Shown here: one piece after another, positions 11,957 to 45,781 of the stretch
Layout of the letters: each line of letters starts with the position of its first letter
Position numbering within the stretch: the stretch's first letter is position 1
DNA from: Clostridium sp.
Lineage (GTDB): Bacteria; Bacillota; Clostridia; Oscillospirales; Ruminococcaceae
Length of the DNA stretch: 64,000 nucleotides
Assembly (NCBI GenBank): GCA_023664445.1
Contig: JAMPFN010000004.1
Location: 1-64,000 of the forward strand
Reading direction: 5' to 3'
Program-made: the position numbers and the translations under genes
Notes under the pieces: model-generated
Seen by the model: the letters and a program-made list of their open reading frames with translations, nothing else
Told to the model about the DNA's origin: nothing
Database searches by the model: none

Positions 11957-12559
11957 ATGGAGATTTCATTTTATCCCAGATGTCAGCTTGGTATGGAAAT
12001 ATATTTTTCTCCTGATTCTGATAAGTTTTCAATAATTAAGCTTGATGATAAGTATTATATCCGCATTAAAAATCCTGAACGGGAGTGGATATATCCTACA
12101 TGGAAAGAGAATAAATTCAGAACATTTGATGAAGCTCAAAGTTGGCTGAGTTTACATGATTGGGAAAGTGCAGATCATGACCATATTAAGTATGATGATT
12201 CTGTATTCATCAATATGGCGTTTACAGCACTTTCGGACAGACAATCTGTATTGGCTGCGATCAATACCAAAAATCTTGCCAATGACCTTGTAAGGGTACG
12301 TTCATCAAACGTCTGGGCATATGGATTGAATATCAAAAACCGAAAGGATAAAACAGGAGATTTATTGGTACAGTTTAAGAATAAAAACGGCGGTGCGGGT
12401 GATGTGTATATCTACTATGATGTTCCTGTTATGATATATCGCCGCTGGCAGTCTGCACCAAGTAAAGGGCATTACTTTTGGGTGTATATAAGAAACAATT
12501 TTAATTACAGCAAGCTGACCGGGGATAAACGCGGAAAGCTTGGAAATGCAGTTAATTAA
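11957..12559 (+). CDS. KTSC-domain protein
   Basis: 200 residues, RBS TGGAGGAATGAGTAA. Residues about 115-190 match the KTSC pattern: SSNVWAYGLNI, then GDLLVQFKNK, YIYYDVPVMIYRRWQSAPSKGHYFWVYIRNNF. The S-x-x-x-x-x-GY, L-x-V-x-F, Y-x-Y-x-x-V-P and A-x-SKG-x-[YF] elements are visible. KTSC is a small domain, often at the C terminus of phage and prophage proteins and suspected of binding a ligand or nucleic acid. The N-terminal half is unassigned. Confidence 0.7.
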   Translation: MEISFYPRCQLGMEIYFSPDSDKFSIIKLDDKYYIRIKNPEREWIYPTWKENKFRTFDEAQSWLSLHDWESADHDHIKYDDSVFINMAFTALSDRQSVLAAINTKNLANDLVRVRSSNVWAYGLNIKNRKDKTGDLLVQFKNKNGGAGDVYIYYDVPVMIYRRWQSAPSKGHYFWVYIRNNFNYSKLTGDKRGKLGNAVN

Positions 12560-12572
12560 GGAGATGGAGTAT

Positions 12573-13034
12573 ATGAAAGTTTATAAGCATAGAATAAGTG
12601 CAGCAACCAATTCCGCACAAGGATCAGGTACTACATATTATTTAGTAACATTCGATCAGATACAAAAATTTTTCAATGGTGAAGATTCTAATGTCTGGAT
12701 AGGAAAATCTTTTGAAGAACTCGGATGGGCCGCTATTGATTTTGACAACAATTTGTTCGGAAGTCAGATTATAGGCGATGACTTGTATATATGTGTTACT
12801 GACGGCAAAGATATTGAGGTTAATGGTGATTTAGTAAATCCGGAAGAAGCTTTGGAGATTTGTGCACCGGATGATCTTTCAGAATATATTAAATCTGCTT
12901 CTAATGGGATTATTCAAAGGTATATCACGGAATATGAAATTGTCATGCCTGATTTTGATAACTGGGCTGCCGACCTTCTTGAAGATAATATCAGCTTTTC
13001 AAGAATGGTATCGGATTTTCATGAATTTGATTAA
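12573..13034 (+). CDS. Hypothetical acidic protein with MKVYKHRISAA N terminus
   Basis: 153 residues; the ATG at 12573 follows AAGGAGATGGAGTAT. It is acidic (many D and E) with an internal SEYIKSASNG stretch resembling the N-terminal tag of its neighbours. It is the last gene before the strong terminator at 13038, so the fibre-region transcript ends here. Function unknown. Confidence 0.55.
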   Translation: MKVYKHRISAATNSAQGSGTTYYLVTFDQIQKFFNGEDSNVWIGKSFEELGWAAIDFDNNLFGSQIIGDDLYICVTDGKDIEVNGDLVNPEEALEICAPDDLSEYIKSASNGIIQRYITEYEIVMPDFDNWAADLLEDNISFSRMVSDFHEFD

Positions 13035-13037
13035 TAA

Positions 13038-13077
13038 AATAATAAGCAAGTCAATATCTACTGACTTGCTTATTATT
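13038..13077. terminator. Strong bidirectional terminator
   Basis: AATAATAAGCAAGTCA (13038-13053) pairs perfectly with TGACTTGCTTATTATT (13062-13077). It is the boundary between the tail-fibre region and the AT-rich accessory cassette. Confidence 0.9.
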
Positions 13078-13134
13078 TATCTCTATAATGTGATCTGCAC
13101 TGAACACTTTTATCATCTTAATTTACCTCATGAC

Positions 13135-13159
13135 ATAGCACAGCCTGTTTTTGTGCTAT
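13135..13159 (+). terminator. Weak terminator-like hairpin
   Basis: ATAGCACA (13135-13142) pairs with TGTGCTAT (13152-13159). The T tract lies within the loop side rather than after the stem, so termination is uncertain. It lies at the left edge of a 963-base stretch (13078-14040) without a protein-coding gene. Confidence 0.35.
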
Positions 13160-13271
13160 AGTAGATTAATAGTGAAAATAAAAAAGTGAATAAAATTAGA
13201 TATGTACCATATAAATTAAATGTGATACCAAACAGCAACTGAAAATTGTGCAAAACGTCTAAAACTCTAAC

Positions 13272-13300
13272 TTGACATATAATTTAAAATATGATATAAT
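13272..13300 (+). promoter_or_regulatory. Consensus sigma70/SigA-type promoter
   Basis: TTGACA (13272-13277), a 17-base spacer and TATAAT (13295-13300): both hexamers are perfect. It drives rightward RNA into the non-coding stretch upstream of the metallo-beta-lactamase-fold gene. Use of the host housekeeping sigma factor sets this cassette apart from the phage-type motifs elsewhere. Confidence 0.8.
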
Positions 13301-13333
13301 AAATAATTGCTTTTTTATATTTGTGTAAATTTG

Positions 13334-13403
13334 AGCTACCTTCGAGAAAATTAATTTTCTCTTGTTTCAATCTTCATGTAGCAAGCCTAATTGAAATTGT
13401 AGC
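13334..13403 (+). ncRNA. Possible pseudoknotted 5' RNA downstream of the consensus promoter
   Basis: About 34 bases after the promoter, GCTAC (13334-13338) can pair with GTAGC (13378-13382, or a second copy at 13399-13403), enclosing the stem-loop GAGAAAATTAATTTTCTC (13344-13361). TTTCAAT (13365-13371) can pair with ATTGAAA (13390-13396), which interleaves with the first stem as an H-type pseudoknot. The following stretch to 13660 is AT-rich and shows no open frame with a ribosome-binding site. RNA function is speculative. Confidence 0.3.
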
Positions 13404-13669
13404 AAAGAAACCCAATATTTTTCCATATCAAGTCGAAAGAAAAGACATAAAATAGCAATAACAATGTAACTATGGGGAATATTTATTAGTGAAATAGTTT
13501 TAATTGTAAGTGGATTTACTATACGTAATTTGTTAATCAATAACAATTAAAAACAGTATACTTTGCAAAAATACAGAAAAAGTACATAATTACTTTCTTG
13601 CTGAATTTTAAACACTTTTGTGCAACCTTACAATTTTTTCGATTTTTCAAGATTTTTTCTCTCAAATAC

Positions 13670-13698
13670 TTGACATTTCCTGAAAAAAGTGATAAGAT
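13670..13698 (+). promoter_or_regulatory. Second sigma70-type promoter
   Basis: TTGACA (13670-13675), 17-base spacer, TAAGAT (13693-13698). It would start the leader RNA that precedes the gene at 14041. Confidence 0.7.
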
Positions 13699-13820
13699 AA
13701 ATGAGTTGATAAGTTTACGCTGTTGTGTGATATAGACAAATTTCTCCTTTGAATTTGTTTATATGCAACAAAATTCAAAAATTAAATACAAATAAAAAGA
13801 ATATGTTAAGTGCATATAGT

Positions 13821-13970
13821 ACCTGAGAAAGCAGGTGGCATGTGAAGCCAGTCATAATATCCTGCCGAGGGAAGTTATAAAAATAAGACCGTTGTGAATG
13901 GATTGATTTCTATAGGGGAAGATGACTTTATTGACTTTTTCATAGAGATAGTTTGAACAACGGTTTTTAT
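13821..13970 (+). ncRNA. Structured leader with transcription attenuator
   Basis: ACCTG/CAGGT (13821-13825 with 13832-13836) competes with GCAGG/CCTGC (13831-13835 with 13861-13865), so two folds are mutually exclusive. TGGC/GCCA (13836-13839 with 13847-13850) forms a small hairpin between them. ACCGTTGT (13888-13895) then pairs with ACAACGGT (13957-13964), followed by TTTTTATT, a terminator ahead of the gene at 14041. The architecture is that of a riboswitch-like or protein-controlled attenuator, but it matches no riboswitch class I know. Confidence 0.5.
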
Positions 13971-14040
13971 TATATAGATTTTATCAAAAGTATTAATTAT
14001 CTGTGGAGTTGGAAAATAACCTAATAATGAAGGTATTGTT

Positions 14041-15471
14041 ATGAGAAGTTGTTTAGAAGGTTTGTGGAGAGAAATTGATCCGCTAATTTCAGAAGTATTG
14101 CATGATGGTAATAATTCAGATTTATGTGGGAAACATAATGATATGCTGAATTTTGTTGCAGAAAAAATTTCTGAAATAATAAATATTGTAAGATATGTAA
14201 ATGAAGGTGATGCAATAACCTTAGAGCATCTATTAGTATTTGCTAATATATTAAAAAACGATACAGATTTACCACTTCACAGATTAACAACAGCAGCAAA
14301 TGCTGCTGTAACCCTTTCGAAAAAATGTAATTTATGTGCTATTTGCCAAAATTGCTCATATAAAAAATATATGTTAATTTTAGAACATAAAATGAACGAA
14401 AGAGCGATTTCACATGGATTAAGCAACTATTTTTCAAAACCTCAGAGAATGTTTTATTATTTATCATTTTATGACAAACTGAAAATGGTAAACAGCTTAG
14501 AAAATAAGATTTTTTGCTTAAAAGGATTTTCTTCTTCAACGCCATTAATACATTCTGCCATTTTTAAGAATGTATGTTATGGAGGAGGAATTTATATTAA
14601 TTTTGGGGGTAAAGGTATTGTCATAGACCCTGGTGTGGATTTTGTGGATACTATGCATAGAATGGGGATATGTATTAGAGATATTGACGCAGTTATTATT
14701 ACACACGCTCACATGGATCATAATGCCGATGCTGATGCACTTTCTTCTCTCAATTATGATTATAATGCTTATATGACGAAATCCTTCTTTGTTGGCAAAT
14801 TACTGGAAAGAACCCAAATGGTGGGTCATGACATAAAATGGATAGTAGATGATTTGGATTGTAATCAATTAGAGAACAATGGAGTACAAAATATTGAGCT
14901 GTTAAGTGAATATAATGAACGTTGTATATTTACCGATAAAAAAAGTATTAAATTACAATTTGTGCAAACGAAGCATATGAAAAATGAAAAAACTTATGGA
15001 ATTAAATTGACATATGAAAATTTTAGTATCGGTTATACTTCTGATACAGCTTATTTAAATGAATTTAATGATTTTTTTGATGATTTAGATGTTTTGATTT
15101 TTAATATCAGTGATATTTATGAGAAAGATGTTATAGGAATAAAAAGCAAACACACACATTTGGGATATAATGGGAGCGTTAGTTTGTTAAAAAATATTCC
15201 TAAGTCACCAAAACTTTCAGTTGTTTCTGAATTTTGCTGTACAAATGGTGATATAAGAGAAAAAATAATCGCAAAAATGAAAGATGATTTGGGTGAGAAA
15301 TTTAAAGGCACTTTACTTCCAGGAGAAATCGGTTTAGTAATTTCAATTCCTGAATTAAAAGTTAGATGCGATATCTGTAGACAATATATTAACCCTGAAA
15401 ATACATACATACTTTCACCAGAACATGAATATGGAAAAATTTCTTTTGTATGTGGAAATTGTTTCAGATAA
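14041..15471 (+). CDS. Metallo-beta-lactamase-fold hydrolase with two zinc-finger extensions
   Basis: 476 residues. Residues about 170-420 form an MBL fold: THAHMDH at 221-227, His312 (TKHMKNEKTYG), Asp335 (YTSDTAY) and the HTH at 371-373. This complete metal-ligand set favours phosphodiesterase or RNase Z-like chemistry. The N-terminal ~150 residues are helical and end in C-x2-C-x2-C-x2-C (Cys96-105). The C terminus adds a second finger (Cys443, Cys446, Cys471, Cys474). MBL enzymes of this style occur in phage-bacteria conflict loci (for example Apyc1 degrades cyclic nucleotides), so a defence or counter-defence role is plausible. The substrate is unknown. It is preceded by an attenuator and followed by three small genes. 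Confidence 0.75.
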   Translation: MRSCLEGLWREIDPLISEVLHDGNNSDLCGKHNDMLNFVAEKISEIINIVRYVNEGDAITLEHLLVFANILKNDTDLPLHRLTTAANAAVTLSKKCNLCAICQNCSYKKYMLILEHKMNERAISHGLSNYFSKPQRMFYYLSFYDKLKMVNSLENKIFCLKGFSSSTPLIHSAIFKNVCYGGGIYINFGGKGIVIDPGVDFVDTMHRMGICIRDIDAVIITHAHMDHNADADALSSLNYDYNAYMTKSFFVGKLLERTQMVGHDIKWIVDDLDCNQLENNGVQNIELLSEYNERCIFTDKKSIKLQFVQTKHMKNEKTYGIKLTYENFSIGYTSDTAYLNEFNDFFDDLDVLIFNISDIYEKDVIGIKSKHTHLGYNGSVSLLKNIPKSPKLSVVSEFCCTNGDIREKIIAKMKDDLGEKFKGTLLPGEIGLVISIPELKVRCDICRQYINPENTYILSPEHEYGKISFVCGNCFR

Positions 15472-15549
15472 ATTTAAAATAGCATTGTTATTAAGTGTGC
15501 TGATAGAATTAAATTGTTTATAATAGAAATAAAACCGGGGTGACATAAA

Positions 15550-15954
15550 ATGGAAGAATATGAATTTATTTTAATCGTGCTTGAAGAGTATTTGTCACAC
15601 TATAATTCTATAGTGACTTGTTTGGAAAATTATGATGCAAAATCTTTTAAAAACGCATATGATGAATTTTTTGAACAATACTTGACGTACAAAGAACTTT
15701 ATGAGAATTTAACAAATGAAAGTGATATGAATGAGGATTGTGAAAGAAATCGATTTAGGTTTTTGCGAGAGAAAGATTTTAAAGGTTTTATTAAAAACTT
15801 AAAGCAACTGGTGCCAAACCATGATATTGAATCAATAATTCAATCTTTCTATTTAGAGGTTAATTCCCAGGATGTAATAAATTTAGAAACAGAGTTGGCC
15901 ATTTATCCATATCTATTAAAGCAAATTAGAAATCAGGAGGAAAATGCATTATGA
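15550..15954 (+). CDS. Small helical protein of the MBL cassette
   Basis: 134 residues, RBS CGGGGTGACATAAA. It is strongly acidic and predicted all-helical (EEYEFILIVLEEYLSHYNS, NLETELAIYPYLLKQIRNQEE). There is no recognised family. The stop overlaps the next ATG in an ATGA arrangement, so it is translationally coupled to the 60-residue gene. It may be a partner or regulator of the MBL enzyme. Confidence 0.6.
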   Translation: MEEYEFILIVLEEYLSHYNSIVTCLENYDAKSFKNAYDEFFEQYLTYKELYENLTNESDMNEDCERNRFRFLREKDFKGFIKNLKQLVPNHDIESIIQSFYLEVNSQDVINLETELAIYPYLLKQIRNQEENAL

Positions 15955-16133
15955 ACATGAAAATTTGGGAGGAACTTGCCTTAATTAGGGAAGCTTTTGA
16001 AAAACAGCCATTACAACGTCTGAAAGTTGAAGAAGACAGAGGTGGATATATTGATAATGAGGAAGAAAACGAAGAGTATAAAGGTAATCTAAAGGATGGT
16101 TTTTATGGTATGTACTGTAAAAGCAGAAAGTGA
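15951..16133 (+). CDS. Small acidic protein of the MBL cassette (60 aa)
   Basis: Starts at the ATG in the ATGA overlap with the previous gene; RBS AGGAGG nine bases upstream. The central acidic run (DNEEENEEYKGN) sits between a helical N terminus and a basic tail (CKSRK). No homologous family is recognised. Overlap and spacing argue for a real operon member. Confidence 0.5.
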   Translation: MNMKIWEELALIREAFEKQPLQRLKVEEDRGGYIDNEEENEEYKGNLKDGFYGMYCKSRK

Positions 16134-16145
16134 AATAAATAAAAT

Positions 16146-16694
16146 ATGGATGAACTTAAAATAATACATGAAACAGAGAAAAAACAATATTGTAAAAACA
16201 TCTATGAAATGTATATCGTAAAAACATCTAAAATTTTAAATGATTGTAAAACGATTGCACTATCTTATAACAGGAAACTACCTATTTCTTGTTATACTAA
16301 TTTCAGAGATGCATTATTTCACTTTAGAAAACTTTATTGTTCTGTTGAGGAAACAGCATTTTTTAATCAGGGGTTTGCCATTAAGGAACACCTAAATCGT
16401 TCAAAATCAGATGCATTGGGTGTGATTTATGGATTATTTTCATTGATTTCTGAGTTACTTGTTACTAATGGAAATTTAGAAAAAACAGATATACTCTTTT
16501 TTAGAAAATGGATGCATAGATTACGAACTGAAAGTCTTCACAAACGTTTGAATGGAATGATGATATTTGATGATTCGCTAAAATTATCAGATGAAACAGC
16601 AATGGCTATGCTTTTAGAATTTTCACATGAAATAATTGAAAGGAATCTGCAATTATTATGTGCAGAATTGTTGTCAAAATATACTCATAAATAA
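16146..16694 (+). CDS. Helical protein, last gene of the MBL cassette
   Basis: 182 residues, mostly helix, with amphipathic stretches (GVIYGLFSLISELLVTNGNLEK, AMAMLLEFSHEIIERNLQLLCAELL). No signal peptide, clear membrane segment or catalytic motif is visible. It lies 12 bases after the previous stop with a weak ribosome-binding site, consistent with coupled translation. It is AT-rich like the rest of the cassette. A short inverted repeat (ATATCAA...TTGATAT near 16696) follows. Confidence 0.55.
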   Translation: MDELKIIHETEKKQYCKNIYEMYIVKTSKILNDCKTIALSYNRKLPISCYTNFRDALFHFRKLYCSVEETAFFNQGFAIKEHLNRSKSDALGVIYGLFSLISELLVTNGNLEKTDILFFRKWMHRLRTESLHKRLNGMMIFDDSLKLSDETAMAMLLEFSHEIIERNLQLLCAELLSKYTHK

Positions 16695-16802
16695 AATATC
16701 AATTTCTCTTGATATATGGATAGATTTAAAAATATGAAAGTCATACATATTTCTAAAATATTGTCAATTTGATATAAATGTGATACTTTTATTAACTAAA
16801 GT

Positions 16803-17537
16803 TTATAAATTCTCCGTTAATCTCTTATGCAAAATTTTTAATGCTTTTGGTAGAGTAGATTTCAAGACATCATAATCGATGGTATATAAATCAGAAAGGT
16901 GACGTAAATCACGGTCTGAGAGCGGTGATTCCTGTTCTATCATTTCCTGAATCAATAATTCTTCAATCAAGTCATACATAGTAGTCTGATAATCTTCAAT
17001 ACTGTGATGGTTATTCGGCGCTTCAAGGTATAATTCAGCATCTGATATATCTGCCGGATAGCTTGCGCCAAGTATGGATTTCAGAGCGTTCATATCATTT
17101 GAAGAAAGCGTTACATTTGTTAAGTCATCATATGTCACAGCAGTCCAGTTTTTGCCGAGCTGTTCTGCTGCTTTCATACAGAGAGTCCGCCTTGATGTAT
17201 AGCTGACAGTACTCAGATTTCTGCGTATTTCTTCCGATAATCTTGGTTTGAAAAATACTGCAAAAGACAGGTCGGCACGGTATTTAGGGGTCCATTTGTA
17301 TTTCCACCACATTCCCATAAATGATAATAATGCTGTCTGAAACTTATCCTCATGCGTTGTATTTTCAACAAACGTTGAAGCTGCTACATAGCCGAAAAAT
17401 GTGTAATTTAATTCTATGATCTCATCACGTATAGATAAACACCTGATCCGTTCTTCCTTTTCATGTGGCAGAGAATCGTATAGTTCATTAGTCCGAGTTT
17501 TGATGTAATTACTGCTGTTTTTCTTGGAATTCGACAT
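16803..17537 (-). CDS. Putative phage sigma-like transcription factor
   Basis: 244 residues, RBS AGGAGGAATCAAA. Residues 33-100 resemble sigma region 2 (RDEIIELNYTFFGYVAASTF, then W-K-Y-K-W-T-P-K-Y-R-A-D-L and RLSEEIRRNLS). Residues 100-145 (SYTSRRTLCMKAAEQLGKNW, then VTYDDL) resemble a region 3-like helical segment. The C terminus is helical and could hold a region 4-like part. It is the only gene behind its own AATCGTTA motif. If correct, it would redirect host RNA polymerase to a phage promoter class. This is fold-pattern inference; a non-sigma helical DNA-binding protein remains possible. Confidence 0.45.
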   Translation of the reverse strand: MSNSKKNSSNYIKTRTNELYDSLPHEKEERIRCLSIRDEIIELNYTFFGYVAASTFVENTTHEDKFQTALLSFMGMWWKYKWTPKYRADLSFAVFFKPRLSEEIRRNLSTVSYTSRRTLCMKAAEQLGKNWTAVTYDDLTNVTLSSNDMNALKSILGASYPADISDAELYLEAPNNHHSIEDYQTTMYDLIEELLIQEMIEQESPLSDRDLRHLSDLYTIDYDVLKSTLPKALKILHKRLTENL

Positions 17538-28105: not shown

Positions 28106-29230
28106 TCACCTTTTCTTATGTGCAAATTCTCCGGCTTTAAAGTTGTAGATAGGCTTTATCACCTTATCAACGGTTACTGTGTCCACAATATTTTCCATGA
28201 TCTCATCCATAGATTTGTAGGTCATTGGGCATTCATCAAGTGTTTCAGCAGAAACAGTCGTAGAGAAAATGCCGTTCATTTCCTTTTTGAATTCCGATAC
28301 CGTAAACATATTTTTTGCCTCAGAACGGCTGTACCTTCTGCCAGCACCATGAGGCGCTGAACAATTCCAGTCGGTATTTCCAAGCCCTGTGCAGATAAGA
28401 CTTCCGTCGCGCATATTCATTGGTATCAGCAGCTTTTCACCTTTTTGAGCAGACACAGCGCCTTTCCTCAAAATCATATTTTTGATGTCAATGTAGTTGT
28501 GTATTGTCTCAAAGCTGTCCGTTTCATGCAGTTTCATACCGTCAAGAATAACTTCCTTGATGATCTGTCTGTTAAGAGCTGCGAACTGCTGCATGATCTC
28601 CATATCGTGCAGATAGTCAGCCATATTCTGTTCTGACAGCGGTGCAAGCTCATATGGTATCTCATTCTGAGAACGTCCGCCGATCGAATCATAAGCGATT
28701 TTTTGATAATATTCGGCAACCTGTTTTCCAAGATTACGGCTGCCTGTGTGGATAACAAGATAAAGCTGTTCACCGTCTGTGTCAACTTCAATAAAGTGAT
28801 TTCCACCGCCCAAACTGCCCAGACTTTGTTTCGCTCTGCGTGTATCGACCTGCTTATAGCATAGAATTTTTTCAATATCAATTGTTTCGTGGATACGGTG
28901 AGGCACTTCTCTGACATCTCTTCCATATGGAATATTTTTCTGGATAAAACTGTCGAGCTTAGGCAGATCGATCCGCTTTTCTTTCAGAAGAACCGTCAGC
29001 ATTCCGCAGCCTATATCAACGCCCACAAGATTTGGCACAACATGATCGCTGATAGTCATGGTCGTACCGATAGTGCATCCTGCTCCTGCATGGCAATCAG
29101 GCATAATGCGTATCTTGCTGCCCTTTGAATGCTCTTGATTACAGAGAGCTTCTATCTGACCGCTTGCAGACGGTTCAAGTTCATTTGTAAATACCCTTGC
29201 GGTATTGTATTTTCCGTTTATTTCAAACAT
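28106..29230 (-). CDS. rtcB: RtcB RNA ligase
   Basis: 374 residues. GTP- and Mn-dependent ligase joining 2',3'-cyclic phosphate or 3'-phosphate RNA ends to 5'-OH ends. All signature motifs are present: MPDCHAGAGCTIG (residues 43-55, metal-binding DCH), GVDIGCGM, GGGNHFIEV, HTGSRNLG, APHGAGRRYSR (the histidine that becomes guanylylated) and the terminal KPIYNFKAGE. It likely repairs tRNAs cut by host anticodon nucleases, by analogy with T4's repair enzymes. No archease gene is adjacent. Confidence 0.95.
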   Translation of the reverse strand: MFEINGKYNTARVFTNELEPSASGQIEALCNQEHSKGSKIRIMPDCHAGAGCTIGTTMTISDHVVPNLVGVDIGCGMLTVLLKEKRIDLPKLDSFIQKNIPYGRDVREVPHRIHETIDIEKILCYKQVDTRRAKQSLGSLGGGNHFIEVDTDGEQLYLVIHTGSRNLGKQVAEYYQKIAYDSIGGRSQNEIPYELAPLSEQNMADYLHDMEIMQQFAALNRQIIKEVILDGMKLHETDSFETIHNYIDIKNMILRKGAVSAQKGEKLLIPMNMRDGSLICTGLGNTDWNCSAPHGAGRRYSRSEAKNMFTVSEFKKEMNGIFSTTVSAETLDECPMTYKSMDEIMENIVDTVTVDKVIKPIYNFKAGEFAHKKR

Positions 29231-29274: not shown

Positions 29275-29811
29275 TTAATGCTTATATTCGTCTTTTATCA
29301 AATCAAATAAAGAATGTTCGGTTTTCTTTATGTCTGATATTTTTCTATACTTTTTAATAGCGTTAATTAATTTCGGAAAGTCGTCAAAATATGCCCTTAC
29401 AAATTCATATGACTTTATATTTTTATACTTGAGGATACTTTTGCAAAATTCACTGGGTTTTATTTTTGACTTTTTATATTCATCATATCTGTTTTCATTG
29501 AAAATTATAAGCATTTCAATTTCAGGGGCCGTAATAATATTAACAACATTAACCTTATGTATGTATGCCTTACTGAGTTTGAAAGCTTCCTTCTTAGAAT
29601 CAAGTATTCGAAATACAGTAACCTTATCATCAAAGCCTTTGGATAAGTATTTCTTTTCAAAAGTATCTGCTTTACGGCATCTCAATACTTTTTCATCAAG
29701 AAGCTGCTCACGTTCAAAAATCAAGCAGTGATTATCCAGTAAAATATCAATCACTGCTGTTTCAGAATTACCTTCCGCTATACAGGCTATATAACCGCTT
29801 ATATCAAGCAT
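29275..29811 (-). CDS. Effector-like partner of the adjacent ABC ATPase (TOPRIM/RloB-like)
   Basis: 178 residues. The opening (SGYIACIAEGNSETAVIDILLD) resembles a TOPRIM-like acidic start with E in GNSE; HxDSR-like ILDSKKEAF and the NIITAPEIEMLIIFNE block follow, and SKIKPSEFCKSIL comes later. This pattern is shared by small proteins coded next to AAA_15/AAA_21 ATPases in Firmicutes abortive-infection loci (AbiL/RloB style). It overlaps the ATPase gene by 8 bases. The nuclease function is inferred. Confidence 0.5.
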   Translation of the reverse strand: MLDISGYIACIAEGNSETAVIDILLDNHCLIFEREQLLDEKVLRCRKADTFEKKYLSKGFDDKVTVFRILDSKKEAFKLSKAYIHKVNVVNIITAPEIEMLIIFNENRYDEYKKSKIKPSEFCKSILKYKNIKSYEFVRAYFDDFPKLINAIKKYRKISDIKKTEHSLFDLIKDEYKH

Positions 29812-30985
29812 ATCCTTTTTCCTCCTTGGATATGAGATCGGCGATATTCTTTTTTAAACATAAATACGCATTGTATGCCGGTGTTGTTCCCTCAAGATAA
29901 CCGCTGTTAAACACTTCGCTTTTCTTTATGTCATTTCTTTTTAAAATGTCCGAAAGATTTTCTATAAATATTCCATTCCTGTTTCTTGTAATAAAAATGC
30001 TGTCATTTCTGTCAAATTCATCAAGCAATTCGGAATAATGTGTAGAAAAAATCAGCATACTGCCTTTCTTGTTTAATGTGGTATCCATGAAAAATCGGAT
30101 CAGCGTTGCAACAATTTCTCTGTTGAAATGATTTTCTATTTCATCGATCACAAGATATCCTCCGTGTTCTAAGGTAAAGGCAGCAAGCGTAAAGGTGATT
30201 ATTCCTTTTATAGTTCCGGAAGATAAATATTGATTCAATTCCAATGGGTTTGACAGGATTATCTCATTTTTGTTTTTGAATTTGAGACGGATAATATTTT
30301 TTTCTTTATTGTTAGATATTGATAATTTTTCAATTGTCGGATCAAGAAATGTGATTATTTCCGGTGAGATATCCCCCGATAACGCAAGAATATTTAAATT
30401 TGTAAATGATAACAGATTTGATATATACAGATGATTATTGTTTTTCTTGTTATAAGCAATAATGATACTTATATCGTTAGGTAAATATTCTTCATTGTTA
30501 TTTCTTGTTGACATAAGATCACTATCTGTAAATTCAGTAAGGGAAGCTTTAGACGTTGTTTTAGAAACCGGTTTTATCCAAAGTTTTTCTGAGCTTATAT
30601 AATAATTCATACCAATTTCATTCTGTTGATCTGCGGTGATCACTGTTTCTAATTTTCCTATTTCATTATCAGAATAGAAAAATGTAGTTATCGTTGCTTC
30701 TTCACATTCCCTGAGAATATCATTGACGCCTATGTGGTTGATAGACCTGTTATCAAGAATATTTAACGCAAGGAGTATTACTTTTAAAGCAGAAGTTTTA
30801 CCGGAAGCATTTATACCAACAATCGCATTAGCGGGATTCATATAGAAGTTGTGCTTCTCATGTAATCTGTATAAATATTCCTTATCATATTCGTCTACAC
30901 GTTGTTTTGCATAAAAATCAAAGGAAACTTCTTTATCTGTTTGGAAAAGCGGAATACCTTTTACTGTTATTTTGAGTACTTTCAT
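29804..30985 (-). CDS. ABC/SMC-like AAA_15 ATPase of a two-gene abortive-infection-like system
   Basis: 393 residues. Walker A in AIVGINASGKTSALKVI (about residues 54-70), signature-like LSSGTIKGI, Walker B YLVIDEIENHFN and H-loop ISTHYSELL-type segment (LIFSTHYSELLDEF). The inserted central region replaces a long coiled coil. It is the sensor/ATPase half of OLD/RloA/AbiLi-type systems, in which the ATPase controls a toxic partner; here that is the overlapping downstream gene. An imperfectly spaced inverted repeat lies upstream. Confidence 0.7.
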   Translation of the reverse strand: MKVLKITVKGIPLFQTDKEVSFDFYAKQRVDEYDKEYLYRLHEKHNFYMNPANAIVGINASGKTSALKVILLALNILDNRSINHIGVNDILRECEEATITTFFYSDNEIGKLETVITADQQNEIGMNYYISSEKLWIKPVSKTTSKASLTEFTDSDLMSTRNNNEEYLPNDISIIIAYNKKNNNHLYISNLLSFTNLNILALSGDISPEIITFLDPTIEKLSISNNKEKNIIRLKFKNKNEIILSNPLELNQYLSSGTIKGIITFTLAAFTLEHGGYLVIDEIENHFNREIVATLIRFFMDTTLNKKGSMLIFSTHYSELLDEFDRNDSIFITRNRNGIFIENLSDILKRNDIKKSEVFNSGYLEGTTPAYNAYLCLKKNIADLISKEEKGYA

Positions 30986-36411: not shown

Positions 36412-38952
36412 ATGGGATTATTTAACAAAATGCAGTTGGAGAAAATAAATGCGGCTGCAAAGAAAAGTCAGCAGCTTGCAGAACCCAAAAAATCCGTTTC
36501 AAGAAAAACCATGAATAGCGAATTGAACCAGATTTCCGAAAGCGTAAAAGAGTATTTCAAGGATTCAAAAGCAGAGCTTATCACAACGGAGAAACAATTA
36601 CATGATTACATAACCCAAATGATAAAAGCCGGTATTGGCGGTATAGATACTGAAACAACAGGTCTTGACCGCCAGAAAGATCGTATTGTAGGCGTGTGTC
36701 TTTATTATCCCGGCGGTGTGGAAGTGTATATACCCAGCAAACATATTGTTCCACTGTTTGACGAGCCATATAAAAATCAGTTGGAATATGAAAAAATAGG
36801 GCATGAGCTGCAGAGACTTGTTGAAGCAAAAACAAAACTTGTATTTGCAAATGCCGACTTCGACCTTTCCTTTATATACAAAGATTTAAAGGTTGATCTG
36901 ATTGACAACTGTTTCTATGACGTTATTATCGCATGGCGGTGTCTTAAGGAAAATGAACGTGATAATTCCCTTAAAGGGTTATATAATAAGTATCCGCTGA
37001 AAGGTAAAGGAGACCCTATGAAATTCAAGGATTTCTTTTCGCCTGAGCTGTTTCCTTATTGTAAGCCTGATGTTGCAAAGCTTTATGCGGCAAACGACGC
37101 TAAAATCACATATGAACTTTTCTTGTGGCAGCTGCCGTATCTGAGAAAAGATAATCCTAAGTGTAAAAAACACAAGTTTGAAGCTATTGCCGATCTGGTA
37201 TGGGGCGTTGAGTTTCCTATGATCGGTATTTGTCAGCGTATGCACCGCAGAGGTATTTATCTTGAACAATCTGTAGCAGATATGCTTAAAAGAAAATATC
37301 TTCCGCAATGTGATGAAGAACATAAAAAGCTTCGTCATATGGTACAGGAATTAATGGAATCGCCTAAGCATTCGGCAACTGCTAAACCGCCGTTTTCAAG
37401 TGCGTCGGAGTTTAATCCTAATTCTGTACCGCACGTCAAATGGCTTTGCTATGACTTATTAAAGCTTGACGGCGGTAAAAAGGGTGGAACAGGTAAAGAA
37501 ATACTTGAAACGTTCAATCTGCCTGTTACAAAACAAATACTGAAATGCAGAAGTCTGGTTACTCTTATAGGTACTTTTGTTGAAAAACTGCCAAACAACG
37601 TTTCTGAAGACAGCAGAATACATTGTCAGTTCAAACAGATGGGAGCAGATTGTGTAGTTGGTGACACAATTATTGCAACAAATAAAGGATATAGAAAACT
37701 ATCTGAAATTTGTAAACCTGCGGAAAAATCTATAGGTAATCATATTGATGTAGGGGGAATTAAGGTTTGGAACTGCAATCAGGAACTTGAAGATGTCCAG
37801 AGCGTAATTACATTCAAGCAATATCCTACAATAAAAATTACTACTCAGTATGGATTTTCAATTGAAGGTACGTATAATCATCCGGTTATGATATCTAAAT
37901 ATACACAGGCTGATTATCTTCGTAACAGAAGTAATAAAGTAATACGAACATTTTGGGAAGGCAGATTCTTTAAGCAATTGTGTGATATAAATGTTGGCGA
38001 CATTATTGAAATTCCTTGCAATTATCAATGCAACGGAGAATATCAGCCTACTAATTTTGAGAATATCGATACAATAAATGCAAAGAAGAATATAGTTTGT
38101 CCGGATACATATACAGAGGAATTTGCTGAGTTTTTAGGAATGTATCATGCTGATGGAACTTCAAGATATAAAGACGGTACTTATGAGATTGCTATTCATA
38201 ATGATGATACTGATGTTATATCAAATGTTGACAGACTGGCTGAAAAACTTTTTCACAGCAAAACAAGTCATTATAAAGACAAACGGCCAAAGCACGGTGC
38301 ATCAACTTATATTCATGGAAAACAACTTTCCTGCATGGACAATGTATTGACACATGGCGCTTTAAATAAAAAAATTCCTGATGCAATATGGATATCCCCG
38401 GTATCTGTAATAAATTCCTACATTAAAGGAATGACATTAGATTCTACAGTCGCAAGACGTAAGAGTGGCGCAGTGACATTTGAAATAACAGTTATGGACA
38501 TGGTAGATTCACGATTAATTCAGATGCATTTAGCATCTCAGGGAATTTTATGCAGTATTCAGAATAAATTAAATCCTAAAACAGGTAATCATTTTCAAAG
38601 ATTGAAATTTGGTCCTTATGCTTATGATAAATTTAAGGAAACGATTGGATTCATAGAATCTAAGAAATATGTCAAGGATTCATACCCAAATAGTAAAAAC
38701 AGATCGAGAACAAAGCGAATTGATAATTCATTTTTTGTTGCAGTAAAAAAGATTGAGTATGGGACTAATGATGTATATGACCTTCACATTCCAGGCACTC
38801 ATTCATTTATCAGCAATGGGATTATCAGTCATAATACCGGCAGAATGTCGAGTGCCTCCCCAAATATGCAGAATATTCCAAGTCGTGCCAATGACATAAG
38901 GCATATGTTCAGAGCAACACCGGGATATGTTCTTTTATCCTCAGACTACAGT
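36412..38952 (+). CDS. polA: Family A DNA polymerase, exon 1 (contains an intein)
   Basis: 847 codons, RBS GAAAGGAGGTTTCTT. Residues 80-230 carry a 3'-5' exonuclease (GIDTETTGLD = Exo I, NADFDLSFI = Exo II, YAANDAKITYELF = Exo III). The polymerase palm starts after an in-frame intein (residues 414-808): GRMSSASPNMQNIPSR and LLSSDYS, the first half of motif A. The frame stops at once after DYS because a group I intron begins. Joined to 40161-40850 and 41209-41757 it gives 1259 residues, or 864 after intein removal, a normal size for phage Pol I. Confidence 0.93.
37651..38835 (+). mobile_element. Intein with LAGLIDADG homing endonuclease in the polymerase
   Basis: 395 residues. Starts with Cys in CVVGDTIIATNKGYRKLSEI (block A), has GTYNHPVM-type block B, and ends VYDLHIPGTHSFISNGIISHN followed by Thr as the +1 nucleophile. 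LGMYHADGTS and KGMTLDSTVA are the two LAGLIDADG-type helices, so it should be self-mobile. It is inserted between GAD and TGRMSS, the conserved TGR motif of family A polymerases. Confidence 0.93.
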
Positions 38953-39400
38953 TAATTGTTGGCGGTAGTCTATAATATAAACTCGGCTAAATCGGTGAAA
39001 GCCTTATAATTCGGTTCACTTATAAGGTCAATACCGAGCAAGTCATATGAATTTATGACATGTGTAGAGAGCATAGAAAGCTATATATTTTCCATTCAGA
39101 GAAATCTGTAAATACTGTTAATAAGCAAATTTACTTATATAAACGGCAGGGAAAGTTGAAAATAAGGTACTTTAATAAGTACACGAAGCAAGTATAGTAT
39201 AGCCCAAGTGGGTTAGCATATAGATGATATTAGTCTATAATAAGTCTATTAAATAGAAACACCGAGCTCAGTGTTGAAACGGTAACAGCTCTGCATTGAG
39301 AAGATGTGCTCCGATCCTCATGGTAACATGAGAAGTATTTAACGAATACGATCATATATCTTGTTGTAAGATACTTGCTGTAATCTATCCTGTTGATAAA

Positions 39401-39438
39401 ACCTTATATAAACTATGAGGTGATTCATATGATAGTTT
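39401..39438 (+). promoter_or_regulatory. Late-promoter-like motif in a hairpin covering the endonuclease RBS and start
   Basis: ACCTTATATA (39401-39410) runs straight into AAACTAT (39410-39416), which pairs with ATAGTTT (39432-39438). The stem encloses GAGGTGATT and the ATG at 39429. In long RNA the RBS is hidden; RNA starting just after the motif would lack the 5' arm. T4 intron endonuclease genes use exactly this logic. Confidence 0.6.
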
Positions 39439-40148
39439 ACACTATTACAAATAAAATAAACGGTATGAAATATGTAGGCTGTACTGAACGTTCAATAAAT
39501 CTTAGAATGGATGGACATAGAGCAGCATGCAAACGTGGAGTAAAATTTAAATTATATAACGCAATTCGTGAGTATGGGTGGGAGAATTTTGAAGTCAAAG
39601 TTATTGATTCTTCCGCTAAAAACAGAGATGAGTTGTACAAATTAGAATCTTATTATGTAGAGAAATTTGATTCAATTAATAATGGATATAATATGATACC
39701 TGGCGGAGATTATAATCCTATGGATAATAAAGAAGTAGCAGATAAGCATGATAAGATAATGAGATTAGAACGTGTCCGTTCAGAAATCTCTAACTCCATG
39801 ACAGCATACAGAAAAGAAAATCCATTTACATATGAGCATAGAATAGGACTTTCAAATCAAAAACGTGAATTCTATGCTTCTGAGAAAGGTAAAGCCTTAC
39901 TTGCAAAAATGGCAGCTGAACGTCAATCGAAAATAGATGCGGGTATAAAATTAAGACATTTTCAACCTGTACATTGTATTGATGAGCAAGGAAAGATAAT
40001 TGAATCATTTAAATCAATTACAGAAGCTGCAAATTGGTGGGCGAATAATTCAGATGTTTGTACTACACATGATGGATATACAACAAAGATAAGACGTTCA
40101 AATCAACAGAACCGTTATTATCACGGTTTAAAATGGATATATGATTAA
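39429..40148 (+). CDS. GIY-YIG homing endonuclease of intron 1
   Basis: 239 residues. The GIY-YIG module is at the N terminus: VYTITNKINGMKYVGCTERS (GIY...YIG equivalent: VYT-x10-KYVG), R-M-x-G-H helix, ESYYVEKF (the catalytic Glu) and NNGYNMIPGG. The C-terminal part has repeated DNA-binding modules (EHRIGLSNQKREFY, then VHCIDEQGKIIESFKSITEA NUMOD-like and LKWIYD). It would cut an intronless polymerase allele to promote intron homing. Confidence 0.92.
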   Translation: MIVYTITNKINGMKYVGCTERSINLRMDGHRAACKRGVKFKLYNAIREYGWENFEVKVIDSSAKNRDELYKLESYYVEKFDSINNGYNMIPGGDYNPMDNKEVADKHDKIMRLERVRSEISNSMTAYRKENPFTYEHRIGLSNQKREFYASEKGKALLAKMAAERQSKIDAGIKLRHFQPVHCIDEQGKIIESFKSITEAANWWANNSDVCTTHDGYTTKIRRSNQQNRYYHGLKWIYD

Positions 40149-40160
40149 AATATTTAACCG

Positions 40161-40850
40161 CAGCAAGAACCAAAATTAACCGCATATGTGTCACAAGACC
40201 CGAACATGATCAAGTCTTTTCAGGAAAATAAAGATATATACAGCTTTATTGCTGCTATAGCTTTTAATAAGACTTATGAAGAATGTAAGGAATTTACTCC
40301 AACGGGTGAATACAATCCGGAGGGTAAAGCAAGAAGAACAGAAGCAAAATCAGTGGTCCTTGGCATCCTTTACGGTCGTTCTATACCAAGTATAGCCGAT
40401 CAGTTATACAGTCGAGAGGACTGGTCAGATGAAAAGAAAGTCAAACAGGCACAATACGTGTATGATTCTGTACTGAACGCTTTTCCGGCTTTAAGAGAAT
40501 TTATGGTAAGTTCTCAGAGCTTTGCCAAAAAGCATGGGTATGTTGAAACGATTTTAGGCAGAAGAAGACATATTCCTGATATGATGCTGCCTGATTTTGA
40601 ATTTGTTCCTATGACAGGATACGTGAATCCCGATATTGACCCGCTTGATATAAATACTCTGAATGGTGGGAATGAGATTCCGAAACGAATTCAGGAAGCT
40701 CTTTACAAGGAATTGACTTCTTATAAATATTTCGGACAAGTTGCAAAGCGTATAAAACAGCTTGCGGAAAATGAACATATCAAGGTGATCAATAACAGAT
40801 TTAAAATTTCAGAAGCAACAAGACAGATTTGTAACTCGATCATACAGGGT
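40161..40850 (+). CDS. polA: Family A DNA polymerase, exon 2
   Basis: 230 codons. Opens QQEPKLTAYVSQDPNMIKSF, the second half of motif A. It contains the O-helix/motif B region (TEAKSVVLGILYGRSIPSIA, matching R-x3-K-x6-YG) and ends NSIIQG, where the motif before QGSAAD is cut by intron 2. The start follows directly from the intron boundary, so no ribosome-binding site is expected. Confidence 0.9.
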
Positions 40851-41208
40851 GAACCAAACCGGTTAAACTGCCCATTTGCTGTAAACTGCATTACTCACAG
40901 GTGTGTAGCTTAAAGCTATGCTAACGGTATCAGTTGAATAAGACCTCTGACCCAAGTGTTACAACAAGATGTCAGATGTTATCAAAGGACGAAGCCGCTG
41001 ACTAAGAGAACCTACGGTCCTGAAATATGGATAGCAGGTAATACCGTGTTACTTATTTAGAGAAAGTAGGACAGCTCTAAATAAAAATGTACAGACTAAT
41101 TCAATTAATGAATGTAGGACGGAAGATGAGTTACCGTCCGAATAGTGCAACTCAATGTAAATTGAGAAGAGATAGTCGGGAACTTATTGAAAAATAAGTG
41201 GCGGTCTG
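40851..41208 (+). mobile_element. Group I intron 2 in the polymerase gene (ORF-less)
   Basis: 358 bases. The exon ends CAG GGT (terminal T) and the intron ends in G before AGT GCC GCC GAT, restoring QG-SAAD. The core AGAAGAGATAGTCGGGAAC near 41163-41181 matches the group I S element (P7), and GGACGAAGCCGCTGACTAAG lies upstream. No endonuclease gene is present, so it is not self-mobile unless helped in trans. Confidence 0.88.
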
Positions 41209-41757
41209 AGTGCCGCCGATCTTACGAAACTTGCAATGCTCAAGGTCGAAAGCGATGAGGAATGGAAAAAATTAGGTGGGAGAATCCTTGTACCCGTTCA
41301 TGATGAACTTATTGCAGAAGTTCCGATCGAACATTGGAAAGAGGGCGGCGAAAGGCTGAGTCAGCTTATGTGCGAAGCCGCAAGCTTTTTACCGTTTTCA
41401 ATCAAGTGTGATGTAACCACTACTTACAGATGGTACGGATTGGAATATCCTTGTCCGTATAAACAGCCTGAAATCATCCACAACATAACAGATGAATCTG
41501 AGATCAACTGGATTCTCTATCATCTGTTTGAGGTTGGCTATGAGCTGCCTGTTTACAAGGGAGAAAACGGAGAGAAACCGGAAGGTGATGCTGCATTGGG
41601 TATCAGCGGAATCTTAAGTGAAACTGCATTATCCCACATTCAGGATTACTGCAATCGTTATAATATAACAGAGGATGAATTTATTCATCATATTCATACA
41701 AAGGTGCATACCGGTTCTGCACCGATAAGGAATTATACTTTAAAGAACTATAAATAA
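41209..41757 (+). CDS. polA: Family A DNA polymerase, exon 3
   Basis: 182 codons plus stop. Begins SAADLTKLAMLKVE and contains motif C as ILVPVHDELIAEVP (the catalytic VHDE). The last ~90 residues after the palm are an extension (NITDESEINWILYHLFEVGY, then VHTGSAPIRNYTLKNYK) beyond the usual end of Pol I, possibly for contact with a partner such as the clamp. Confidence 0.9.
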   Translation, partial: SAADLTKLAMLKVESDEEWKKLGGRILVPVHDELIAEVPIEHWKEGGERLSQLMCEAASFLPFSIKCDVTTTYRWYGLEYPCPYKQPEIIHNITDESEINWILYHLFEVGYELPVYKGENGEKPEGDAALGISGILSETALSHIQDYCNRYNITEDEFIHHIHTKVHTGSAPIRNYTLKNYK

Positions 41758-43825: not shown

Positions 43826-45781
43826 ATGACTCTTGCAAATAAATATCGTCCAAAATCCTTTGAAGATGTTTGCGAACAGGGATTAGTAACAAATATCCTC
43901 AGCAATATGTGCAGATCAGAACTGGCTAACAGAAATTTTCTGCTTATAGGTCCTGCGGGTACAGGAAAAACAACACTTGCCAGAATCATTGGCAATACGC
44001 TAAATGAAGGCGAATGTGAACCAATTGAAATTGACGCCGCTTCAAACAGCGGTGTTGACGCTATGCGTGACATTGTGGGTGAAGCCCGGTCATATCCTAT
44101 CGGGAATAAGTTTAAAATCTTTATAATAGACGAATGTATGACAGGTGATACTGAAATACTTACAAATTTTGGGTACAAGAGAATGGACAATCTGAATGAA
44201 TCAGATTTAATTGCTCAATACACAGATAATGGAAATATTGAGTTTGTGAAACCAATTAGATTGATAAAAAAACATTTTGAGGGAGATTTGGTTTGTTGGC
44301 AGCCAATACAAGGACATACTATAAAAATGACACCACATCATGTACAACCCTTGCATTTTGTAAAGTCTAATTCTATAAAAGAATCTTATATTAAAGATGT
44401 TAAGTTTAATCAGGCGAACGAACTTATTGTTGCAGGAAATGGTATAGGAAATTCATCTGAACTGTCCCCAATGGACAGATTGGCCATTGCGAGTCAAGCT
44501 GACGGATGTATTCAGTTTGAGAGCAGTACATATAATATGTGGTTAATCTCTTTGAAAAAGCAAAGAAAAATAGAAAGAATACTTAATTTGTTTAAGGAAG
44601 CAAATGTTGAATACAATGAAATTTCTTCGATACGTCCGGATGTTAGAAGATTTACATATAAAATGCCTAAGACGGTTTCAAAGAAGCTTTCTTCTTACTT
44701 CTCTTTAGATTTTAACTATGATAGAGCAAGACAATTTATTGAAGAAGTACAAAAATGGGATGGATATGTATCTCTGAACTATATCGAATACTTATCTATC
44801 GTAAAAGAAAATACAGATTTTGTATCAGCAGTTGCTACGTTAGGAGGCTATTCTTGCAAACAGGTTGTGGTACATGATAGCCGAAAAGAAACATATAAGG
44901 ATACGCATAAGGTCTTTATGTATGATACCGTATATAGAGGATGTCAACGTATACAAAAAACCATTACTAAAGAATATTTTAATGGAAATGTTTATTGTGT
45001 TGAAGTTCCATCACATAAAATTATTGTACGTGCAGAAGGATTTACTTTTGTTACTGGTAATTGTCATGCGCTTAGCTCTGCTGCGTGGCAGAGCTTGCTG
45101 AAAGTGCTTGAGGAATCTCCGGCACGAAGTGTGTTCATCTTCTGCACGACCAATCCTGAGAAAATTCCCAATACTATTATATCTCGTGTGCAGACATTTC
45201 AGCTTTCAAAAATCAGCCTGAACGGAATTTACAACCGGCTTATTCATGTGCTGAAAAACGAAAATACATCGGGACGTAATATAATTTATTCGGATGACGG
45301 AGTTATGTTTATTGCAAAGCTTGCAAACGGCGGTATGCGTGACGCTTTGACTTTGCTTGATAAAGTTCTTGTCTATTCAAATGACATCAATTCTAAAACT
45401 GTAACAGAAGCGCTGAACTTGCCGAATTATGATAATTATTTTGATTTGCTCAGTGCAGTCGCCAAGAAAGATAATACCGTAATTTCGTCTGTAATTCATG
45501 ATGTGTATAATTCCGGCGTTAATTTTGTTAAGTGGTTTGAGGATTTTCATTCTTTTGTAATGAATATTGTGAAATATATTTTCTTACAGGATATCAATAA
45601 AACCATGATACCGGTACATTATCAGGATAAGATAAGTAAGTACGGTTCTTCTCATTCGACGGTTTGTCTGAGACTTGCAAATAAACTGCTGAATCTTAAT
45701 CAGGAACTCCGTACCACAAATTATCAGCAGGAAATAGCATTGACATATTTATGTTCTGCTCCCACACAAAAGAAACAGTAG
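43826..45781 (+). CDS. dnaX: Clamp-loader gamma/tau subunit (contains an intein)
   Basis: 651 residues as read. AAA+ motifs: YRPKSFEDVCEQ, Walker A GPAGTGKTT (42-50), Walker B FIIDE interrupted after residue 103 by a 309-residue intein, then CHALSSAAWQSLLKVLEESP, sensor 1 FIFCTTNPEKI and SRVQTFQLSKI. Without the intein the protein is 342 residues, a gamma-length DnaX without tau extension. It works with delta (48025) and delta-prime (48942) to load the clamp. Confidence 0.92.
   Translation: MTLANKYRPKSFEDVCEQGLVTNILSNMCRSELANRNFLLIGPAGTGKTTLARIIGNTLNEGECEPIEIDAASNSGVDAMRDIVGEARSYPIGNKFKIFIIDECMTGDTEILTNFGYKRMDNLNESDLIAQYTDNGNIEFVKPIRLIKKHFEGDLVCWQPIQGHTIKMTPHHVQPLHFVKSNSIKESYIKDVKFNQANELIVAGNGIGNSSELSPMDRLAIASQADGCIQFESSTYNMWLISLKKQRKIERILNLFKEANVEYNEISSIRPDVRRFTYKMPKTVSKKLSSYFSLDFNYDRARQFIEEVQKWDGYVSLNYIEYLSIVKENTDFVSAVATLGGYSCKQVVVHDSRKETYKDTHKVFMYDTVYRGCQRIQKTITKEYFNGNVYCVEVPSHKIIVRAEGFTFVTGNCHALSSAAWQSLLKVLEESPARSVFIFCTTNPEKIPNTIISRVQTFQLSKISLNGIYNRLIHVLKNENTSGRNIIYSDDGVMFIAKLANGGMRDALTLLDKVLVYSNDINSKTVTEALNLPNYDNYFDLLSAVAKKDNTVISSVIHDVYNSGVNFVKWFEDFHSFVMNIVKYIFLQDINKTMIPVHYQDKISKYGSSHSTVCLRLANKLLNLNQELRTTNYQQEIALTYLCSAPTQKKQ
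44135..45061 (+). mobile_element. Intein inside the clamp-loader Walker B motif
   Basis: 309 residues from Cys104 (CMTGDTEILTNFGYKRMDNL, block A) to Asn412 (FTFVTGN) with Cys as the +1 residue. Block B-like PHHVQPLHF and LAGLIDADG-type LAIASQADGCIQF and EVQKWDGYVSL are present. The penultimate residue is Gly rather than His before Asn. It splits the DE of Walker B from CHAL, the most conserved part of the ATPase. Confidence 0.92.

Follow-up and report, generated by a model that had tools for sequence, protein, structure and literature searches.

An RNA leader homologous to the L10 leaders of ribosomal operons, a strong intrinsic terminator and a gene for an MBL-fold protein follow one another within a phage-borne accessory cassette in the window, i.e. 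the whole analyzed stretch of 64,000 nucleotides. The most plausible explanation, to which we assign a probability of about 60%, is that the cassette carries a captured, working L10(L12)4-type attenuator in front of the MBL-fold gene. This explanation is supported by a full-length match to the Rfam model of L10 leaders, one of two in the assembly; by the second-best score in the assembly with a model of the leader core; by the closest known leaders being those of rplJ; by the strength of the terminator and the correct order of elements before the gene; and by the presence of the same core, outside ribosomal operons, before mobile or toxin-antitoxin-like operons. The initial annotation had described two mutually exclusive stems with a common GCAGGT strand, followed by a terminator and the gene, and all these pieces are present where it placed them. 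From its interpretation as ligand- or protein-controlled attenuation the protein-controlled part stands, whereas the ligand part finds no support and no ligand riboswitch family was matched.

The same annotation could assign the leader to no known class. This is contradicted by the match to RF00557 (L10_leader) at positions 13804-13978 of the forward strand, which covers the whole model (model positions 1-138 of 138) with 42.9 bits (E 2e-5 in the 901 nt of a permissive scan of 13200-14100). An Rfam match had been named there as grounds for refutation, and the one found is just short of the curated cut-off of 44. Since the score is 1.1 bits under this value, a scan at curated cut-offs alone misses the leader and yields no match in the 64-kb window; the leader is L10-leader-like and is not filed as a member of RF00557. 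Across the whole assembly this model has two matches only, the true rplJ-rplL leader with 62.4 bits and the leader studied here, which precedes the MBL gene and not rplJ-rplL, the assembly's own rplJ leader being located elsewhere.

The RF00557 score is not decisive by itself, as 43.0 bits are reached by a chance terminator of one class genome (L218), a match that also speaks for the alternative of an ordinary terminator with an accidental upstream similarity. For this reason we constructed a core-only model, R1, that leaves out the terminator and is based on 41 ribosomal rplJ leaders, with the window excluded. In the 2.8-Mb assembly R1 ranks the true rplJ leader first (41.9 bits) and the window second (23.5), and the next match, at 14.8, is noise; the core without the terminator thus remains 9 bits above genome noise, whereas R1 has no match in L218 even when E values up to 10 are allowed. 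The decoys, 842 kb in all, were mostly chosen for the pattern AGCAGG...CCTGCCGAGG (in viruses mostly a chance pattern) and supplemented with two related phages; in them the best core among the matches listed scores 20.9 and none equals that of the window. An accidental origin of the similarity is therefore improbable.

By direct alignment, the closest leaders are the rplJ leaders L025 and L030 from another family of the same order, and the core alignment to them scores 63.5 versus a maximum of 42.0 over 200 shuffled cores. In the 41 rplJ leaders the stem is paired in 99.0% of cells, with three pairs changed on both sides, and sliding the partner strand lowers pairing to 20-57%; the covariation score is higher than in all 500 shuffles, a result to be read with the caveat that kin sequences can exceed shuffles without any structure. 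The covariation check proposed in the initial annotation thus comes out positive for the stem in rplJ leaders. It does not extend to orthologous phage leaders, because the collections searched hold no leader of a homologous MBL gene to compare.

All elements of the leader lie on the forward strand. A start of transcription is predicted near 13705 from a sigma-70-like promoter-like site, TTGACA-17-TAAGAT with an extended -10 element, at 13670-13698 (10/12 consensus match), although promoter-like matches are not enriched in the region overall (23 found vs 21.9 expected). In the fold of 13705-13975, the leader begins with a long 5' hairpin at 13717-13769, and the entire leader is more stable than its shuffles (z -3.17). 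The predicted L10-binding-type core, or anti-antiterminator, occupies 13818-13876 and consists of CC/GG, the AGA kink-turn strand, the GCAGG/CCTGC stem, UAA and CGAGG. The stem is complete (GCAGG 13831-13835 with CCTGC 13861-13865); UAA (13855-13857) is located within CATAATA (13853-13859), 5' of the 3' strand of the stem, and CGAGG (13866-13870) is intact. A single invariant base has changed: the AGACA strand reads AGAAA, where all 41 aligned rplJ leaders have C.

A second hairpin, seen in the sequence and in the minimum-energy fold, is formed by ACCTG (13821-13825) and CAGGT (13832-13836) at 13821-13836. It excludes the GCAGG/CCTGC stem, since the strand GCAGGT (13831-13836) is common to both, and it forms in competition with the L10-type hairpin. 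These 5 base pairs have no statistical weight by themselves; the GCAGG/CCTGC hairpin does carry weight, because the L10 leader is matched along with the flanking AGA, UAA and CGAGG motifs, and it is predicted to be the stem of the L10-binding hairpin, with UAA and then CGAGG following. The intrinsic terminator at 13885-13968, with the outer stem ACCGTTGT (13888-13895) and ACAACGGT (13957-13964) and a subsequent T tract, ends 72 nt upstream of the start codon (ATG, 14041). Its fold of -25.1 kcal/mol compares with -13.2 +/- 2.6 in 200 shuffles, none of which is as stable (z -4.63), and chance does not explain this stability.

In B. subtilis, according to PMC4538822, the target of L10(L12)4 is a kink-turn hairpin in which UAA is unpaired and which acts as anti-antiterminator; its binding by L10(L12)4 (Kd of 33 nM for the rplJ leader) blocks the antiterminator and promotes the terminator. 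The phage leader shares with the rplJL leader the kink-turn-type hairpin with UAA, CGAGG, the downstream intrinsic terminator, its own promoter and considerable length; it differs in the changed invariant base, in having no supported antiterminator and in the score just under the cut-off. By homology, L10 binding, a similar direction of control and its use by the phage may be suggested for the leader in the window, and the host L10(L12)4 complex is the expected effector, by analogy with the mechanism described in PMC4538822. An excess of free host L10(L12)4, when there is little new 23S rRNA to bind, would lead to its binding to the kink-turn/UAA hairpin at 13818-13876; the bound complex would hold this hairpin against the competing folds, the terminator at 13885-13968 would form and the MBL gene would be off. 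Uptake of L10(L12)4 by ribosome assembly would let the hairpin open into the competing folds, with read-through and expression of the MBL gene. Such control would not be autogenous, because the gene behind the leader is a phage MBL gene and not rplJ-rplL, and would act in trans, with a host protein as regulator and an MBL protein instead of L10 as the product of the regulated gene.

Several observations weaken the explanation by a captured attenuator: the score below the cut-off, the C to A change in AGACA, the lack of an MBL homologue with a similar leader in the collections searched, the preference of the lone RNA for the competing fold and an antiterminator not above chance. In the protein-free RNA the competing fold is favored over the L10-type hairpin by 3.5-6 kcal/mol; the free B. 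subtilis leader is also loosely folded by in-line probing, as reported in PMC4538822. The putative antiterminator at 13850-13927, taken from the minimum-energy fold of nascent chains ending at 13930-13945, pairs 13850-13877 with 13904-13927 by 19 bp in four helices, which is no better than in shuffles (p 0.41, or 0.33 with a longer strand), and we do not claim it. Apart from the missing homologue, the same observations would fit a degenerate leader derived from rplJ, which would bind L10 weakly and act as a constitutive partial terminator that keeps MBL expression low. Against such a relic speak the intact stem pairs, UAA and CCGAGG and the strong terminator. Furthermore, the antiterminator test often misses normally placed leaders, as only 19 of 43 rplJ leaders (17 with the longer strand) reach p 0.05, so that 24 and 26, respectively, of these leaders in their working position fail it. 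Degeneration is thus a serious but rather unlikely alternative to a captured, working attenuator.

The 476-aa protein encoded at 14041-15471 of the forward strand combines a helical N-terminal part, an MBL fold with the motif THAHMDH and C-terminal CxxC pairs. It matches PF12706 (Lactamase_B_2, 6.1e-16) and PHROG 392. The nearest solved structures by sequence are 8gyg, whose chain is called arylsulfatase, and 7u2s (Apyc1, 4.3e-6), whereas the Pfam Apyc1 family PF23023 gives 30 bits versus a cut-off of 50, below membership; matches to RNase Z are weak and partial. AlphaFold applied to the single sequence gives a mean pLDDT of 33. The protein shares the MBL fold and the THxHxDH motif with Apyc1 and RNase Z-like MBL phosphodiesterases and differs from them by an extra N-terminal part of about 175 aa and a Cys-rich C-terminus.

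This Apyc1-like domain, together with the overlapping stems and the terminator, is what could favor an attenuator or riboswitch for another ligand or protein, for instance a signal nucleotide that the MBL enzyme would destroy, with the L10 likeness arising by convergence. The idea that the leader senses such a nucleotide was put forward in the initial annotation and finds no support: nothing reaches the Rfam cut-off for a ligand riboswitch in the 64 kb, L10_leader is the one family below E 1 in the permissive scan of 13200-14100, no other being near significance, and the sequence gives no sign of a ligand pocket. A convergent origin is also hard to reconcile with the second-best L10-type core of the whole assembly, and we consider a sensor of this kind very improbable.

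The closest MBL domains detected belong to TPR-MBL proteins (L004 and L005) from the same bacterial order, for which tblastn gives 25% identity to the phage protein along 188 aa and 38% along 103 aa. Unlike the phage protein, they have a TPR N-terminus; an L10-type core, sought as CCGAGG in L10-type context, is absent from the 13-16 kb around them. In these genes (L004:535-2823 and L005:640-2754), the same MBL subtype as in the phage gene is joined to a different N-terminal domain. Among 394 genomes of the order, 101 matched the protein, except for the window itself only weakly in the MBL domain. No MBL homologue with a leader was found by pattern scans of viral and genome contigs or by tblastn in phages and plasmids, and neither of two related phage contigs encodes the MBL protein.

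The window belongs to a contig of 68,180 bases (C102) in a bacterial assembly of 2.83 Mb (G000). This contig is identified as phage by its terminase large subunit, DnaB-like helicase and split family-A DNA polymerase. The moron-like accessory cassette at 13035-16802 includes promoters, the leader, the MBL gene and three small forward-strand ORFs encoding 134 aa (15550-15954), 60 aa (15951-16133) and 182 aa (16146-16694), the first and third with no family found. In a related phage contig (G395, locus L198) with a 78% identical terminase, 26 bp separate the homologues of the two genes that flank the cassette (12540-13034 and 16803-17537), which identifies 13035-16802 as an insertion that contains promoters, a leader and a terminator of its own. 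The cassette has a GC content of 28.0%, its flanks 34.8% and 37.5%. Upstream of the leader promoter, the forward strand contains a promoter-like site with a perfect consensus, TTGACA-17-TATAAT with an extended -10 element, at 13272-13300 (12/12). About 370 nt between this site and the leader promoter at 13670 contain no clear ORF.

L10 leaders are counted among the leaders of ribosomal operons in PMC3766115. A strict core pattern occurs in GTDB species genomes in at least 115 stretches, 80 of which were examined as loci: L10 or L12 is encoded within 1.5 kb downstream in 76, the locus ends within 99-280 nt in three, and one is non-ribosomal, so that among the matches listed ribosomal genes follow the core in 76 of 77 assessable loci. 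Among 40 further hand-picked matches 38 are ribosomal; the other two, picked as suspected chance matches, are coding-like sequences that are not followed by L10 or L12. As nearly all copies precede L10 or L12, the core motif marks L10 leaders well. A broader pattern is present in 218 of 388 genomes of the order (about five matches in the reversed control) and at more than one place in three of them only (G193, G361 and G386), the second places in G361 and G386 being due to chance. Judged from context, second RF00557 matches in L181, L218-L224, L183 and L185 are also chance, and second rplJ-type copies in G105, G230 and G437 are ribosomal duplicates; L340 is a coding sequence with a GC-rich chance pattern.

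Non-ribosomal copies of the L10-type leader are rare. In L277 (JAFQOD010000072.1), the core precedes a gene for an ImmA/IrrE-like Peptidase_M78 protein (PF06114, 9.5e-18) and a membrane protein, on an island that also has genes for a recombinase and for a helicase-like protein, the latter resembling type I restriction in our reading. In two species of one genus, orthologous loci (L179 and L176) have the core before genes for a four-helix membrane protein of 156 aa and proteins of 104 and 179 aa. In L202, an IMG/VR contig, the core follows a perfect TTGACA-17-TATAAT promoter and precedes a gene for a SocA/Panacea antitoxin (PF13274, 8.6e-14) and one for a 369-aa protein that looks membrane-bound; Panacea is treated as a toxin-antitoxin domain in the excerpts of PMC8832971 and PMC10440598. 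The relaxase-like and transposase-like genes of this contig cast doubt on its phage nature, and it is perhaps not a phage. Open frames in L202:1-800 contain repeated VAPYVGAWIEI and SHPTWVRGLK, suggestive of a CRISPR array on the contig that carries the Panacea operon with its L10 leader.

R1 scores of these leaders are 32.5 (L277), 31.9 (L202), 28.4 (L179) and 27.9 bits (L176). Like the window, all four have the core before a mobile or toxin-antitoxin-like operon; they differ from it in a 4-7-nt loop before UAA and an intact AGACAG, whereas the window has a long loop and AGAAAG. Relatives of the Panacea protein are found in nine phage records. The 179-aa protein of L179 matched one of 197 genomes, namely its own; no relatives were found in plasmids for the 156-aa protein of L179 or the second protein of L202, nor in plasmids or phages for the 217-aa protein of L277.

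Ribosomal-protein leaders have been described as feedback devices of ribosomal operons. It is possible, and we propose it tentatively, that phages and other mobile elements repeatedly capture the L10(L12)4 leader as a sensor of host ribosome assembly that gates conflict genes, these being toxin-antitoxin operons (Panacea, ImmA/IrrE) elsewhere and a phage MBL effector or counter-defence enzyme here. If so, through the use of a ribosomal-protein leader in trans the supply of ribosomes would feed directly into the phage-host conflict; free L10(L12)4, as a readout of stalled ribosome assembly, would time the genes of mobile elements. Searches of the open-access literature, which leaves out subscription papers, listed no description of an L10 leader before non-ribosomal genes, and this is weak evidence of novelty.

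Other loci of the phage contig also deserve mention. The family-A DNA polymerase gene (36412-41757) contains an intein and is split into three pieces, 36412-38955, 40188-40913 and 41236-41757. The first gap is occupied by an ORF for a GIY-YIG endonuclease (39393-40148) and the second is about 320 nt long; the gaps look like two introns, and a permissive Rfam scan of 38900-41300 gives no known intron class. The clamp-loader ATPase gene (43826-45781) has DNA_pol3_delta2/AAA matches at both ends only and appears to be interrupted in frame by the intein-like stretch between them. The phage also encodes an RtcB RNA ligase (28106-29230; PF01139, 1.8e-64), and at 29275-30985 an AAA_21 ATPase, putatively AbiEii-like, is located beside a 178-aa ORF, with which it may form a phage-borne defence pair.
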